Source: a virus
Direction: 5' to 3' (one strand)
Virus record (IMG/VR): IMGVR_UViG_3300048929_000769
Location: 1 to 47,873 of that record
Length of the DNA: 47,873 nucleotides
Below the pieces are notes generated by a model. That model had not been told where the DNA came from. It saw only the letters and a list, made by a program, of their open reading frames with translations, and made no database searches. Shown here piece by piece: positions 2,873 through 40,200 of this stretch. The position numbers were made by a program, and so were the translations under genes. Each line of letters starts with the position of its first letter. The first letter of the stretch is position 1.

Positions 2873-3277
2873 CTATTCACCCTGTCTTTGACCAGGCTTT
2901 CGGTCCTTTTCTTTCTCAAGCAAAATTTTAAATATTTGACGCATTTCTTCACGACGTTCTTCTGGAGCATTTAAATAATCTTTGAAGAAGATCCCGTGTT
3001 CAGGATTGTTAATAAATTCTTCGAAGGCAGCTTGTTCTTTTTGATTAAAATCATCAATTTCATCTGATGAACGTGTTTTATTGCTTCGACCTAAAAGATA
3101 GTCTGTATTAACTTCATAGAGATCAGCGAGTTTAGTCAGCATTCCTGTATCAGGATCCCTATAATCCCGTTCATAATTAGAAAGAACAGAATTTGTAATT
3201 CCTAATCTTTCCGCAACATACATTTGAGACCAACCTTTTTTTTCACGTTCTTTTTTTAAACGATTTCCTAAACTCAT
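2873..3277 (-). CDS. XRE-family repressor (CI-like)
   Basis: A 134-aa protein with an N-terminal helix-turn-helix of the Cro/C1 class (about residues 8-60, including WSQMYVAERLGI and SNYERDYRDP) and a charged C-terminal region rich in Glu and Lys. It lacks a LexA-type peptidase domain, which fits inactivation by the ImmA-like protease downstream rather than RecA-stimulated self-cleavage. The start ATG at 3277 has GGCGG upstream. It is divergent from the Cro-like gene at 3440 across an operator region with three 15-bp dyads, the arrangement of a lysis/lysogeny switch. Confidence 0.9.
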   Translation of the reverse strand: MSLGNRLKKEREKKGWSQMYVAERLGITNSVLSNYERDYRDPDTGMLTKLADLYEVNTDYLLGRSNKTRSSDEIDDFNQKEQAAFEEFINNPEHGIFFKDYLNAPEERREEMRQIFKILLEKEKDRKPGQRQGE

Positions 3278-3310
3278 AATAATACCGCCTTATTTACTTT
3301 CTTGCTTAAT

Positions 3311-3339
3311 ATGATATCAGTGTTTCACTCTCCGTTAAA
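3311..3339 (-). promoter_or_regulatory. Candidate promoter for repressor operon
   Basis: On the minus strand, TTTAAC (3339-3334) and TATCAT (3316-3311) are separated by 17 bases and lie 30-60 bases upstream of the repressor start. Match to consensus is only moderate, but operator O1 (3345-3359) sits directly upstream, as expected for an autoregulated repressor promoter. Confidence 0.4.
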
Positions 3340-3344
3340 CAAAT

Positions 3345-3359
3345 TCAACTAAAAGTTGA
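3345..3359. promoter_or_regulatory. Operator O1 of the phage switch
   Basis: Perfect dyad TCAAC-TAAAA-GTTGA, 15 bp. It shares half-site type and spacing with three other dyads at 3374-3388, 3409-3423 and 3635-3649. Likely binding site for the XRE repressor and/or the Cro-like protein. Confidence 0.6.
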
Positions 3360-3367
3360 TAAATGTG

Positions 3368-3396
3368 TTGACTTACACGTAAAGTGTAATTATAAT
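3368..3396 (+). promoter_or_regulatory. Lytic promoter (PR-like) with embedded operator O2
   Basis: TTGACT (3368-3373) and TATAAT (3391-3396) with an exact 17-bp spacer make a near-consensus sigma-A promoter facing the Cro-like gene. The spacer is filled by the dyad TACAC-GTAAA-GTGTA (3374-3388), so repressor bound there would block RNA polymerase. The expected transcription start is near 3403. Confidence 0.85.
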
Positions 3397-3408
3397 AGGA
3401 ATAACAAA

Positions 3409-3423
3409 TCAACTTTACGTGTA
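3409..3423. promoter_or_regulatory. Operator O3, downstream of the lytic promoter
   Basis: Dyad TCAAC-TTTAC-GTGTA combines one half-site type from O1 (TCAAC) and one from O2 (GTGTA). It lies between the predicted transcription start and the GGGAGGTG ribosome binding site of the Cro-like gene. The stretch 3412-3424 is also the exact reverse complement of 3373-3385. Confidence 0.6.
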
Positions 3424-3439
3424 ATTGGGAGGTGCTTAG

Positions 3440-3643
3440 ATGGAATTATTTCAAAAAATAAAAAAGATTCGTCAGGCAAAAGGTGTTACACAAACCTTTG
3501 TTGCAACAGAAACTGGTATGACCATTTCAAATTATAATATGAAGGAAAATGGAAAACGAACAATTACGGCTCTTGAATTAGAATCAATTGCAAAAGCTAT
3601 TGGTGAACCAGTAGGAGTTTTTTTTGATGAAAAATCAACGTAA
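3440..3643 (+). CDS. Cro-like XRE regulator
   Basis: A 67-aa helix-turn-helix protein consisting of only the DNA-binding domain (TQTFVATETG and ENGKRTITALELESIAKA are helix-turn-helix-like). Single-domain size, divergent orientation from the larger repressor and position behind the operator-controlled promoter are typical of Cro. The ribosome binding site is GGGAGGTG. Its stop codon lies inside a fourth operator dyad (3635-3649), suggesting feedback on the downstream early operon. Confidence 0.85.
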   Translation: MELFQKIKKIRQAKGVTQTFVATETGMTISNYNMKENGKRTITALELESIAKAIGEPVGVFFDEKST

Positions 3644-34354: not shown

Positions 34355-34600
34355 ATGAGCACCACACGCAAAGAGAAGTTTCCAACTACACCAAAAGAGT
34401 TGGATAAGCGGACTAAAAAAGAATGGATTGAGGGCGCTGTCGCCTTGAAGCATGAACGCTTTGAGGTGGCGGGCGCCCTTTTTAATTGCAATCCAGATGA
34501 ACTACTGTCACAACAAGAAGTTGAAAAGCGTTTGGATGCATATTTAAATCCAACAGTAACTCAAAGGGAGGAAATAGTAGATGTCAATTCAAAGGAATAG
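34355..34600 (+). CDS. YqzN/YkzM-like small tail protein
   Basis: An 81-aa protein between XkdJ- and XkdK-like genes, exactly where skin and PBSX carry yqzN/ykzM. The core EWIEGAVALKHERFEVAGALF with a later QQEVEKRLDAYL matches that small domain pattern. Function unknown. Overlaps the sheath gene by 20 bases. Confidence 0.65.
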   Translation: MSTTRKEKFPTTPKELDKRTKKEWIEGAVALKHERFEVAGALFNCNPDELLSQQEVEKRLDAYLNPTVTQREEIVDVNSKE

Positions 34601-35933
34601 AGCTGGTGGTTATGTTGATTTGATTGCTCTTGCAAAATCAAGAGTGACTCCAGTAACAGGTAGGGTTTTAATTCCCTATCAAAGTGAGTGGGGAGCGCCT
34701 AACCAAGCTGTGGACATGGCCAATACAGCCGAACGTTTAAAAGAGTCAGGTCTATTGGTAGATGAGCTGGAGTTAGCATCAGAAACTGGGGCTACTGTAG
34801 TAGGGTATCGTGTTACGAATGGTGAAGAAAAGGTTGCATCAGTTACTGTGGCTGATAGCTACACGATCGAAGCTCGTTATCCTGGATTGCGCGGAAACGA
34901 CTTTGAATATATGATTCGTGCAAGTTTGGTTGATGCAAGCAAAAAAGAAATCATTATTCGAGACATTAAAGGCATCTACGATACAGAGACATTTCTTGTG
35001 ACAGATAAAGTGACGGCTGGGGAAACATTGAAGAAGTCTAATATGGTTCGTTTTAAATCTATTGGTTCAGTGGATTTAGTTGACGTAGCTTTTACACAAC
35101 TTTCAGGTGCAGTAACTGGCACAGCGATCATAACAGCGTCTGATTGGAGTCGCATTTTTAATCGCATCGATGGATTAGTTTTTGATGTGGTGTATTTACC
35201 TTCAACAAATGCTGCTGTACAAGCTGCCGCTAAACAATGGCTCCTTGATCGCCGTACAAAAGCTCGTAGGCTTGCTCAGTTAGTTGTGGCCGGTCTTGAT
35301 TTAGACGATACCGACATTGAAAAACATAATGCTCGAAGTCGTGCGATGAATGCTAGATTCATCGTCAATTGTTCCATTGCTGGTACACATACCAACGGAA
35401 AAACATATAATTCTGTGCAATGGGCTGCTTGGTTAGCAGGTTTGATGGCGGGTACACCTGCAAATAAATCTTTTACTGGTGTTAAGGTTCCAATGACTCA
35501 GGCTGTTATCGATTGGAGTCATAGTGAGGTCATGAAAGGTCTTGCAGAGGGTACGCTAATGGCAACACGAGATGGCTATGATTACATCATTGAGTCTGCG
35601 GTCAATACATTGACAACATTGGCTGAGGGTGAGCGTGAGGATTACGGTAAAATTCGTGTATCAATGACGATAGATCAAATTCTCAATGACATTTATGGCG
35701 CTGCTAAAAAACAAAAAGCAAAGCTAGATAATGATAAGGGTGGCAGAGGAATGTTTATAGCTACCGTCCTAGAATATTTAGCTATCCGCAGAGGCCAGAA
35801 AGCAATTGATGAAGGATACACATTTATAGAAGACCCTGACCAAACAAGTGACTTCGATTATGCGTACTTCAAATTATTGGCTAAACCGCTTGATGCTATT
35901 GAAGCATTCTATATCAAATGGGAGGTAGCATAG
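34581..35933 (+). CDS. xkdK: Tail sheath protein
   Basis: A 450-aa contractile sheath protein, XkdK type: N-terminal RVTPVTGRVLIPYQSEWGAP, long beta/alpha middle, C-terminal DPDQTSDFDYAYFKLLAKPL. Presence of sheath proves a myovirus-type contractile tail. GGGAGGAAATAG precedes ATG 34581. Confidence 0.92.
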   Translation: MSIQRNRAGGYVDLIALAKSRVTPVTGRVLIPYQSEWGAPNQAVDMANTAERLKESGLLVDELELASETGATVVGYRVTNGEEKVASVTVADSYTIEARYPGLRGNDFEYMIRASLVDASKKEIIIRDIKGIYDTETFLVTDKVTAGETLKKSNMVRFKSIGSVDLVDVAFTQLSGAVTGTAIITASDWSRIFNRIDGLVFDVVYLPSTNAAVQAAAKQWLLDRRTKARRLAQLVVAGLDLDDTDIEKHNARSRAMNARFIVNCSIAGTHTNGKTYNSVQWAAWLAGLMAGTPANKSFTGVKVPMTQAVIDWSHSEVMKGLAEGTLMATRDGYDYIIESAVNTLTTLAEGEREDYGKIRVSMTIDQILNDIYGAAKKQKAKLDNDKGGRGMFIATVLEYLAIRRGQKAIDEGYTFIEDPDQTSDFDYAYFKLLAKPLDAIEAFYIKWEVA

Positions 35934-35936
35934 TAG

Positions 35937-36380
35937 ATGGAAAGAGAACTTATTGGACGAAACTTATCTGCACAGGATGATAATGGGGATGACATTCAAA
36001 CAATTAAGGAAGTTGAAGTCCTCTTGAAACCTGAAAACTTGGATATTGTTCGAGCCGGGCGTATGGCTAAAACAAAGCAACTAACAGGCTATGAAATTTC
36101 CGTCAAGTTAGTTATGTCTAAATTAGAGTCACGACTACGGTATCGGCTTTTGGATGACTTTAAGGCAGGGAAAACAATGTTTCTTGAACGAATTACTGGA
36201 TCACTTGAGGATAAAATTACAAGCAATGTAGAACGTGTACTGATTACAGGTATTCATATTCATGGTGATATTGATATTTTGGTGGCTAAGATAGACGAAA
36301 ATAACGGTATTGATATTACATTAGAGGGTACTGCTACAGACTTCGATTTTGTAGACAAATTCCCTGACTATATGGCATAG
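35937..36380 (+). CDS. xkdM: Tail tube protein
   Basis: A 147-aa XkdM-type tube subunit directly after sheath (AGRMAKTKQLTGYEISVKLV; ESRLRYRLLDDFKAGKT). It polymerises around the tape measure protein. A strong terminator overlaps its stop codon, so it probably sets high expression of sheath and tube relative to what follows. Confidence 0.9.
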   Translation: MERELIGRNLSAQDDNGDDIQTIKEVEVLLKPENLDIVRAGRMAKTKQLTGYEISVKLVMSKLESRLRYRLLDDFKAGKTMFLERITGSLEDKITSNVERVLITGIHIHGDIDILVAKIDENNGIDITLEGTATDFDFVDKFPDYMA

Positions 36381-36439: not shown

Positions 36440-36850
36440 ATGAGCGACAAATTGCAAAAATACTTATCTGCTGGAACAAAATCTGATAAACCTGAGCAAA
36501 TTGAAGTAACTGTTGATGGTGAAAAGTGGTCTGTACGTCGTCTTACAACAATGGATATTCGCCGTTGTTATGATGTTTCATTCTATGAGGACGGATCTGC
36601 TAAAGAAACTTTTAATGAGATTGACGCCATGATTGTTCGTGCGACAGAACATGATTTTGACTGGAACAATACAGAGCTTTTAAAAGCGTTTAATTGCATT
36701 AATAAAAATGAGCTTCCGCCACGAATGTTAAGTAATCCTGATGATTATGCTGTATTGTCCAAGGCTGTTCGCAACTTCCAAGAAACAAAGGAAGAGTTGC
36801 TTAAAGAAGCAAAAAACTCATCAGGCGAGACGGAGAAGCAAGCTGGATAG
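36440..36850 (+). CDS. xkdN: Tail assembly chaperone (short form)
   Basis: A 136-aa XkdN-type protein; ATG 36440 behind TGGAGGAATT. N-terminal half is strands (KPEQIEVTVDGEKWSVRRL), C-terminal half helical. It binds the tape measure protein during tail assembly. Near its end is the heptamer A-AAA-AAC in phase, producing a longer frameshift form (see separate entry). Confidence 0.85.
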   Translation: MSDKLQKYLSAGTKSDKPEQIEVTVDGEKWSVRRLTTMDIRRCYDVSFYEDGSAKETFNEIDAMIVRATEHDFDWNNTELLKAFNCINKNELPPRMLSNPDDYAVLSKAVRNFQETKEELLKEAKNSSGETEKQAG

Positions 36851-36984
36851 CGTCCTTTTGGATTAATCAGAAGAAATTGCCTGCGGAAGTCTTGCCTTAT
36901 GAAATCAATTTGAATCGGCAGTACTATTTTTGTTTGGCCGCATCCATGTTAGCAGAAGAAGAACAAAAGAAATTAAATAGATAG
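36440..36984 (+). CDS. Tail assembly chaperone, -1 frameshift fusion
   Basis: A -1 shift at A-AAA-AAC (36811-36817) bypasses the stop at 36848-36850 and adds 55 codons ending at TAG 36982-36984, giving 181 aa. The added part is coherent protein: SWIASFWINQKKLPAEVLPY then a helix CLAASMLAEEEQKKLN. It fills the gap up to the tape measure gene, with no start codon and ribosome site of its own. Length, position and slippery site match the G/GT-type chaperone frameshift conserved in tailed phages. Stimulating structure downstream was not identified. Confidence 0.82.
36811..36817 (+). other. Slippery heptamer A-AAA-AAC
   Basis: Zero-frame codons are GCA AAA AAC, so the X-XXY-YYZ rule is met exactly. 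Slippage by -1 opens the downstream frame from CTC at 36817. Confidence 0.85.
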
Positions 36985-36987
36985 GGG

Positions 36988-39900
36988 GTGAAAGTCATAG
37001 CAAACACAGCTAGAATATCAGTCCCTATATCTTTGCAAGACCTTGTAACTGGTCCACTTAAAAAAGTTGAAAAACAATTTCAGCATACACAAGATGATGT
37101 TGTTGGTTTACGAAGAGAAACCGATAAGACCAGCAGAGAAATGATCTCAGGCAATCGAAAAGCTGAAACGACTATAAAAAGTTTAGGGAAAGAGATTGGT
37201 AAAACTTCTGATAAAACTAAAGAGCTTGGAAGATCAAAGGTTTCAAGCATATTTACTAGAGCTAAAAGAGGTGCGGATCAGCTTTATTCTTCTGTTGGTC
37301 GTACAGCTAGTCGTATTAAAGGTATGGCAAGTAATGCGCGTGTCAATTTACGAGCAAATGATAATATTAGTCCTGCCATTGATGGGATATCTTCTAAGTT
37401 AGCGACATTAGCTGCTACAGCAGGAGGTATTGTTTTAGGTGGAGGAATAAAAGATTCTCTATTTGGTGGAGTGACAGACTATTACTCAGAGGTTGCGCGG
37501 AGTGCGGCTTTATTGCCTGAGGATATTAGAACACCTGCTGTGAAAAACGTGGATGATCTCTATAAACAAGGGCTCTTTGCATCAAGAAGTGAAGGTGTAC
37601 AGCAGTTAGCAAATGCAGCTCCTTTGGTTAGAGATAAAAGCAAAATGAACGATTTTGTCAATGAATCAGCCAAGATTCAATATATTAGACCTGATTCCGG
37701 AGCGGAAGAAATTAACAGAGCATTAGCCCAATCAGCAGACACATTCAAAGAATCCTACAGCCAAGTTGCAGACAGTATGATGTATGCCTACAAAGAAGTA
37801 GGCGATAGGCAACAGGATTTATTTGATACGTTTTGGGAGTATTCTGGATATTTTAAAAATGCAGGAACAACATCAGGACAAATGTCTAACTTTTTAGTTA
37901 AAAGTGTACAGGATGGTGCCTTTAACTTTGACAAGCCTGGGGACTTTTTTAAAGAAGTCTTTGGGGTTAAAGCATTGAATCAATCTGACATGGCAAGCTA
38001 CTTTACATCAAGAGGGGCTGGATCAGAGGAAGCCGATCGACAAGCAACTGCATTTAGTGCAGACATCAACTCAGGTGATCAACAACGGATGAAAGGTGCA
38101 TTAGCCGCTTTTATTGGTGATTTAGCTAGTCAAACAGAGGACCAGTTAAAACAATCTTTGGTGACATTGGGTTCCGCTACTGCTGAAGATAACGGATTGG
38201 CAGCACTTAAAAACTATCGTACTGCTTTTGAAGCCGCACCGAGTGATGTTGTAGGTACAACAGATCGCCTTGTTACAGCACAAAAAGAAGCTAATCCTAT
38301 GCAGTCTAGCATCGAAGCCAGGAGACAAGTTGATTTACAGATGCAAGACATTGGTGCTAATTTGTCTACTGCTGCACTTCCAGCACTTCAAGAGTTTAAT
38401 AAATTGATTACTGAGAATAAGGATAGTATTCAAACCTTTGGTTCTACCATTGCTGGATTTATTTCTGGTTTAACTGGTTTTTATAAAGATCATTTTAATG
38501 TCATCAATGGCGTTTTAGGAACTCTTGGAGCAGGATTCTTAGCTAAAAAGGGTTGGGACGGATTTCAAAAGGGAAAGAATGTTGTTGGAAATATTGTAGG
38601 TTTGTTTACTGGTAAAAAAAATAAAAATAAACCAGGCTCAGGTTTGGGTGGTTTGGGAGACATGTTATCACCATCATCTGGTATGACTATTAATGCTAGT
38701 GTTGTATATCTTAACGGTAGCATTGGTGGTGGAATGGGTGGTGATTTTTTTGATGATTTTGATGGGGGTAGTGACAGAAAAAGAGGTAAGGGTACAAGAA
38801 CAAAAAGAACTCGTAGACGTGGCAGAAATAGAAGAAGAGGCATGGGATTTGGCTCAAGGCTAGTATCTGGATTTAAAAATGCAACTGGTGGATTTATGGG
38901 TAATAGAGGCACTTCAATTCTTCAATCCATTGGTAGAGGTACAAAAGCTGGGGGCAATTGGCTATCCAATCTTGGTAAGGGTCTTTTAGGTGGAGGTGGC
39001 AAAGTTCTGAAAGGGGCTGCTCCTATTCTTAAGGGGGTAGTCAAGGGTGCAGGAATTGCGGGAACTATTGCTAATGTAGGTATGAGTGCCTATGATTTAT
39101 ATCAAACTGCCAAAGACAAAGGGATAAGAGAAGCAATCTCAACAAGGGGCGGATCTGTCGCTGGTAGTATCGGTGGTGGAGCAGTTGGGGGTGCTATTGG
39201 CTCATTAGCTGGCCCAATTGGTACAGCAGCAGGTGCAGCAGTCGGAAGCTGGGTTGGAGAGAAACTGGGTAGCTTAGCTGATTCAAGTGGAGCGACTAGG
39301 TGGGTAGTAGATAAAACAGTAGAACTAAAAGATTCTGTTGTTTCCTTAGCCAATAATGTAGGAGATAAATTCAAAAACTTTTTTGGATTTGGTAGTAAGA
39401 AAGAAGAGCCTTCAGTTAATCCTACCGTTAGAAATAAAGTGATTAAGCCTGATTTTAATGTTTCTAATGCGAAGGAAGCTGAAAAGGGTGTTGCTGTTGT
39501 AGGAATTGCGGCCACATTGACTGCTAATAAAACAACTGCAATAGGACAAAAGTCAAAGAAAAGCTTTACAGAGGTTATGAATGGATCTCAAAAAGCAGGT
39601 AAGAGCTTTTCTAATGTCAGTGCTGCCGCGCTTAAGGAATCCAACCAAACAAAACAATATTTAATGAGCTTGAAGAATATTGTCAGCCAAGGCTCTCTAT
39701 GGGGTAGTAATTTAATTTCCATGATGGCTTCAGGGATGCGCAATAGCTTTCCAACTCTAAACAATGCTGTAGGAGCAGCCGCAGGTGTAATTCAAAACTT
39801 TTTAGGCTTCCATTCACCAACTAAAGAAGGTCCTGCATCTGACTCCGATCGATGGGCAGGTAATTTTGTAACGATGTTTGCAGGAGGGTTACGTGCTGAT

Positions 39901-40200
39901 CCAATCAGACAACGTATGAGTTTAATTGCACGTTCAGTTCGTAACAGTATAGAAGGCATAGAAGGAACAAACTTGTCTAATGGAAGTATTCCCGTTCGGA
40001 CGACCCCATTAACTGGACAAGCTACACCAGGTAGTAAGTCTGTTGCCATTGGAAATATTACTCTGGACTTTGGAACATTAGCTTCAGGCATTACAGACTT
40101 TCAATCGTTTGCCAAAGCCTTGACTAGTCCAGAAGGTCGAGCACTCATTAGAAATGTATTTGGCGAAGAATTATATAAAGCTTTAGAGGTAGGAGGGTAA
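36988..40200 (+). CDS. xkdO: Tape measure protein
   Basis: A 1070-aa tail length determinant. N-terminal 130 residues are coiled coil. Hydrophobic Gly/Ala-rich membrane-like segments occur near 140-155 and around 680-770, and a basic RGKGTRTKRTRRRGR-type stretch lies near 600. The C-terminus holds the conserved FLGFHSPTKEGPASDSDRWA segment. GTG at 36988 overlaps the ribosome-site-like GGGGGTGA, so the exact start is uncertain (an ATA nine bases later would be better spaced). It is directly after the chaperone frameshift product, as expected. Confidence 0.93.
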   Translation: MKVIANTARISVPISLQDLVTGPLKKVEKQFQHTQDDVVGLRRETDKTSREMISGNRKAETTIKSLGKEIGKTSDKTKELGRSKVSSIFTRAKRGADQLYSSVGRTASRIKGMASNARVNLRANDNISPAIDGISSKLATLAATAGGIVLGGGIKDSLFGGVTDYYSEVARSAALLPEDIRTPAVKNVDDLYKQGLFASRSEGVQQLANAAPLVRDKSKMNDFVNESAKIQYIRPDSGAEEINRALAQSADTFKESYSQVADSMMYAYKEVGDRQQDLFDTFWEYSGYFKNAGTTSGQMSNFLVKSVQDGAFNFDKPGDFFKEVFGVKALNQSDMASYFTSRGAGSEEADRQATAFSADINSGDQQRMKGALAAFIGDLASQTEDQLKQSLVTLGSATAEDNGLAALKNYRTAFEAAPSDVVGTTDRLVTAQKEANPMQSSIEARRQVDLQMQDIGANLSTAALPALQEFNKLITENKDSIQTFGSTIAGFISGLTGFYKDHFNVINGVLGTLGAGFLAKKGWDGFQKGKNVVGNIVGLFTGKKNKNKPGSGLGGLGDMLSPSSGMTINASVVYLNGSIGGGMGGDFFDDFDGGSDRKRGKGTRTKRTRRRGRNRRRGMGFGSRLVSGFKNATGGFMGNRGTSILQSIGRGTKAGGNWLSNLGKGLLGGGGKVLKGAAPILKGVVKGAGIAGTIANVGMSAYDLYQTAKDKGIREAISTRGGSVAGSIGGGAVGGAIGSLAGPIGTAAGAAVGSWVGEKLGSLADSSGATRWVVDKTVELKDSVVSLANNVGDKFKNFFGFGSKKEEPSVNPTVRNKVIKPDFNVSNAKEAEKGVAVVGIAATLTANKTTAIGQKSKKSFTEVMNGSQKAGKSFSNVSAAALKESNQTKQYLMSLKNIVSQGSLWGSNLISMMASGMRNSFPTLNNAVGAAAGVIQNFLGFHSPTKEGPASDSDRWAGNFVTMFAGGLRADPIRQRMSLIARSVRNSIEGIEGTNLSNGSIPVRTTPLTGQATPGSKSVAIGNITLDFGTLASGITDFQSFAKALTSPEGRALIRNVFGEELYKALEVGG

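Follow-up and report, generated by a model that had tools for sequence, protein, structure and literature searches.

Frameshifted tail assembly chaperones are textbook knowledge and are well known in tailed phages. In the lambda pair gpG/gpGT, the binding partner of the G part is the tape measure protein and that of the T part the tube protein, with a 30:1 ratio (PMC5009743); according to the summary in PMC5009743, the pair and the conserved tail-chaperone frameshift go back to Levin 1993 and Xu, Hendrix & Duda 2004. Antonov et al. found frameshifting of 6-7% in tail chaperone genes of the HK97-like kind (PMC3711429). We analysed a virus record of 47,873 nucleotides, IMG/VR IMGVR_UViG_3300048929_000769 (positions 1 to 47,873, the whole stretch being called the window below), in which the XkdN-type tail assembly chaperone gene carries the heptamer A AAA AAC and, behind it, an open extension in the -1 frame. 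Taken together, heptamer and extension almost certainly reflect a programmed -1 ribosomal frameshift by the known mechanism of the lambda G/GT type, ordinary in kind.

Common to lambda G/GT and the present gene are an in-phase heptamer near the 3' end and a C-terminal -1 extension that lacks a start of its own, and a subset of the relatives of the present gene uses the slip site G GGA AAG, as in lambda. Unlike lambda G/GT, the present gene belongs to a contractile-tailed phage, its N-terminal part is of the XkdN-type family and not gpG, its slip site is A AAA AAC and its extension is short (55 codons). SPP1 gp17.5/17.5* is likewise a predicted -1 frameshift chaperone from a Bacillota phage, but its slip site is UUUUUUC and SPP1 is a siphovirus (PMC6316719). 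For Paenibacillus larvae phages, which share the host genus, a translational frameshift is noted between the two genes preceding the tape measure gene; there it was assigned by synteny and in other phage groups (PMC6070908). The same gene family and tail-operon place as here are found in the XkdN-like set of PBSX/skin YqbN, phiC2, EJ-1 and the Brevibacillus phages Davies and Osiris. No prior report of XkdN frameshifting was found in the open-access literature, a scope that leaves most subscription papers outside.

The short form of the chaperone is encoded in the 0 frame at 36440-36850 (plus strand, as are all window features given with coordinates; 136 codons, 136 aa) and ends at the TAG 36848-36850. 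The heptamer occupies 36811-36817 in the X_XXY_YYZ phase, on the codons GCA AAA AAC. Directly after the TAA at 36802-36804, the -1 frame opens at 36805 and stays open to 36981, so that the extension at 36817-36984 comprises 55 codons and the TAG stop 36982-36984, and the predicted slip product is 181 aa, 55 of them from -1-frame codons. A first-pass annotation had proposed this in-phase heptamer, the 55-codon open -1 frame and a 181-aa fusion, and all three were reproduced on recomputation. It had also argued that 36851-36984 would otherwise be an unexplained gap, in agreement with our finding of no other open reading frame (ORF) of at least 50 aa across that interval on either strand.

Relatives were collected by scanning IMG/VR twice and GTDB genomes once, yielding 74 distinct sequences from Paenibacillus, Aneurinibacillus and Brevibacillus prophages; the minus-strand loci L128, L129, L131, L133 and L135 were left out. 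The search patterns were built on the protein including its extension and not on the heptamer, so the presence of the heptamer in the relatives was not built in; loci lacking the extension could have been missed. In 72 of the 74 distinct loci, an in-phase slippery heptamer leads into a -1 extension 51-60 codons long, and the check on heptamer conservation that the first-pass annotation had proposed thus came out in its favour. The heptamer was A_AAA_AAC in 64 of these loci, G_GGA_AAG in six and A_AAA_AAA in two. The two exceptions are a locus that has G_GGA_AAG but is cut off by the contig end shortly after the 0-frame stop (L028), and one in which the gene is broken upstream (L055). The latter, from Paenibacillus albidus (locus 3001-3535), has a 0 frame ending after 45 codons with a remainder that fits the family, and looks broken or misassembled.

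In the Aneurinibacillus-type loci (L021-L025, L027 and L028), the lambda-type heptamer G GGA AAG lies 3 nt upstream of the usual site and the -1 extension is retained. The distance from the heptamer start to the 0-frame stop varies among the relatives (7, 10, 37, 40, 52 or 82 nt), with the heptamer and the 'LI..DGEA' extension constant. The conserved -1 coding sequence, LI(R/K)xDGEA, starts right at the heptamer, upstream of any start codon.

Codon usage at the slip site also speaks for a frameshift. Where Ala precedes the slip in the 55 closest relatives, its codon is GCA in 49 of 49 cases, vs 28% of the Ala codons in the rest of the gene, and the slip-site Lys is AAA in the same 49, AAG being confined to the six G_GGA_AAG loci, where it completes the heptamer. 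Loci of the Brevibacillus type often have Leu CTA or TTA ahead of the slip, likewise ending in A. The 0-frame third positions are almost frozen from the heptamer through the 0-frame stop. Past that stop, the ratio of non-synonymous to synonymous polymorphism (pN/pS) of the extension is 0.217 when read in the -1 frame, vs 1.10 and 2.19 in the two remaining frames, in comparison with 0.260 for the 0-frame body of the gene. Where the two frames overlap, the ratio is 0.249 for the -1 reading, a sign of constraint, and 0.701 for the 0-frame tail, which is far less constrained. The ratios indicate purifying selection on the extension in the -1 frame only, and that the protein that counts beyond the slip is the -1-frame one.

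The gene is an XkdN-type tail assembly chaperone. The 0-frame protein matched phrog_389 (tail protein XkdN-like) with an E value of 2.5e-14 over residues 2-126 of 136. Its AlphaFold model, which covers the 136-aa 0-frame protein and not the 181-aa fusion, has a mean predicted local distance difference test score (pLDDT) of 88.5, and its least confident stretch is residues 130-136, beyond the slip site. The top PDB match of the model was B. subtilis YqbN (3klu), the XkdN relative whose structure has been solved, with probability 1.00, E value 7e-3 and a moderate template modelling (TM) score of 0.48/0.54. The extension alone matched no PHROG or Pfam family. The likeness to G/GT-type chaperones put forward in the first-pass annotation is borne out by the XkdN-type family match, the place in the operon and the conserved in-phase heptamer with its -1 coding extension. 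In several GenBank records XkdN-like chaperones are labelled 'portal protein' (L148, Psychrobacillus phage PVJ1, locus 801-1199; H12, H13, H50 and H51).

A tblastn search of the fusion against named phages gave no matches, and the wider family was therefore reached via the canonical XkdN prophage gene of P. macerans. Among 15 more distant phage records that are annotated and carry XkdN-like genes, the in-phase heptamer A AAA AAC, followed by an open -1 frame, is present in 14, mostly as A AAA AAC TAA; phiC2, Davies, Osiris, PBP180, Lj771, JD033 and phiOH2 are among the records sharing the signal. The extension, measured in 13 of the annotated phages, is 53-65 codons long. In the XkdN family the slip site is thus usually A AAA AAC, with G GGA AAG substituting for it in one lineage that keeps the extension. 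In most of the annotated phages the 0-frame stop follows the heptamer immediately, as TAA, in contrast to the present group, which has TCA; this single-base change therefore extends the 0 frame by 10 codons, and in the -1 frame the same base is the third of a Leu codon, so that the change is silent there (CTA to CTC). A slippage join is annotated in none of the 15 records, so the feature has been missed by gene finders in all of these public XkdN-like entries.

Several observations weigh against a programmed frameshift at this site. When the 0 frame was shuffled synonymously and the sequence downstream was left as it is, 6.9% of the shuffles contained an A_AAA_AAC that opened 40 codons or more, and 10.6% contained any such slippery heptamer. 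The Pfam family Phage_TAC_5 (PF08890) scored 25.6 bits over residues 29-125, slightly below its cut-off of 27 bits, which is passed by a same-family relative (L130, on the same contig as L058) at 30.6 bits. No downstream stem-loop was detected, the single-fold z-scores being -0.48 to +0.86 and RNAalifold performing no better than on column shuffles (pseudoknots were not searched), and no well-spaced Shine-Dalgarno-like stimulator was found; AGGA occurs 22 nt upstream in 42 of the 55 relatives. By the spacing standard of dnaX, AGGA at -22 is too distant; some known frameshift sites have no stimulatory element. In Streptococcus phage EJ-1 (L136, NC_005294.1, near locus 1185-1195), one extra A stands upstream of the heptamer, GAAGAAAGC vs GAAGAAGC in MismyG, and chaperone and extension form a single ORF of 198 aa; the near-identical gene of MismyG is without the extra A. 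Either EJ-1 has naturally lost frameshifting or its sequence contains a sequencing error, and frameshifting is therefore not strictly needed in every relative unless the latter applies. Slipping at A AAA AAC in the present gene is putative, the case being built on sequences.

Judged from the window alone, the signal is weak evidence. Among window ORFs of at least 60 aa on both strands, three further cases of a heptamer with a -1 overhang of at least 20 codons were found, all in probably spurious ORFs. The signal within the window is not beyond chance, and the proof must therefore be comparative. By that comparison, conservation across the relatives lifts the signal far above chance.

The -1 frame could alternatively be a separate small gene with its own start, reached by re-initiation or from the TTG at 36877, which we consider very improbable. 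Start-like codons do exist in the -1 frame, TTG at 36877, 36892, 36910 and 36934 and ATG at 36946, so the statement in the first-pass annotation that this frame has no independent start does not hold literally; short downstream ORFs are also annotated separately in related records (Davies gp18, PBP180 ORF21 and JD033_31). What stands of that statement is that none of the 55 relatives has a start with a Shine-Dalgarno sequence within the first 30 codons of the extension, and that the codon at 36877 is TTG in just nine of the 55. Moreover, the conserved -1 coding sequence begins at the heptamer, before any start, and a separate gene leaves the heptamer codons GCA AAA AAC unexplained.

Transcriptional slippage, in which RNA polymerase would slip on the run of A and some mRNAs would join both frames, can draw on the six consecutive A of the heptamer. 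Six A is short for polymerase slippage. What speaks against this explanation is that six distinct relatives have, in place of the A run and at the matching position and phase, G GGA AAG, in which no run exceeds three, and that the X_XXY_YYZ phase is conserved and not the length of the run; we rate transcriptional slippage just as improbable as a separate gene. The lineage with G GGA AAG serves as a clean natural experiment, pointing to selection for the slip and not for the A run. The remaining explanation, by chance overlap, a decayed gene or sequencing error, for which the single-genome odds of 7-11% and the one added base that puts both parts of EJ-1 in one frame might be cited, is refuted by the same frame break in 72 distinct loci and by selection on each segment in its own frame, and its probability is negligible.

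For a programmed -1 frameshift, we infer that slipping happens, at some frequency, and that the extension has a binding partner; the signal, its phase, its conservation and the protein-level selection on the extension were observed directly. Most ribosomes would read on to the TAG at 36848-36850 and produce the 136-aa chaperone. A minority would slip back by one base with tRNA-Lys and tRNA-Asn on A AAA AAC, re-pairing on AAA AAA, and would read 55 more codons to the TAG at 36982, giving a rare 181-aa long form. By analogy to lambda G/GT, the N-terminal domain shared by both forms may coat the tape measure protein, and recruitment of tube subunits may fall to the rare C-terminal extension, with the slip rate setting the ratio of short to long form.

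The genomic setting is that of a tail operon. The tail sheath gene (34581-35933; phrog_279, E value 7.8e-74; Pfam Phage_sheath_1) and the XkdM-like tail tube gene (35937-36380; phrog_365, E value 1.2e-19; Pfam DUF2001 phage tail tube protein) precede the chaperone gene, which sits between the tube and tape measure genes in the order sheath, tube, chaperone, tape measure. The window also encodes integrase, terminase, portal and baseplate genes, and the source is therefore a temperate, contractile-tailed phage of the Paenibacillaceae type.

From its size and synteny, the long ORF downstream of the extension appears to be the tape measure gene; its profile matches are weak, with E values of 4.6e-4 to phrog_33360 (tail length tape measure protein) and 6e-10 to phrog_1047 (tail associated lysin). 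We place this gene at 36997-40200, with ATA 36997-36999 as the proposed start, where the conserved N-terminus begins. The start given by the ORF finder, GTG 36988, lies inside the Shine-Dalgarno sequence AGGGGGTGA at 36983-36991. A GG(A/G)GG core precedes the start codon in 44 relatives, the start standing 6-7 nt past a strong Shine-Dalgarno sequence. At the conserved N-terminus, the codon in the 44 distinct loci is ATA in 29, including the window, ATG in 11, ATC in three and ACG in one. In 17 of the 44 loci (16 with ATA, one with ATC), no ATG, GTG or TTG occurs from the in-frame stop upstream as far as that codon, and in L086 the nearest downstream canonical start is 44 codons away. The tree contains one large group of 29 rows, 28 of which keep ATA.

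This apparent start is more out of the ordinary than the frameshift, AUA being a codon normally rejected at initiation. Because the conserved N-terminus coincides with ATA in most of these loci, canonical starts are missing from a number of them and GTG 36988 falls within the Shine-Dalgarno sequence, the comparison makes it likely that the tape measure gene initiates at AUA 36997 and not at GTG 36988. More broadly, it is quite probable that these Paenibacillus phages initiate their tape measure gene at AUA (AUC in one clade), a start retained across a deep clade and possibly limiting the tape measure protein relative to the chaperone. Any regulatory meaning of the AUA start is a guess on our part. 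If it is true, two translational controls in series, the slip rate and a weak start, would fix tail stoichiometry, and confirmation would add a rare natural case of AUA initiation and suggest how the amounts of tape measure protein and chaperone are balanced. A search on AUA starts in the open-access literature, within the scope given above, likewise yielded no prior report. In six loci (L017, L024, L027, L032, L050 and L091), unrelated or spacer sequence stands right after the -1 stop in place of a tape measure start.
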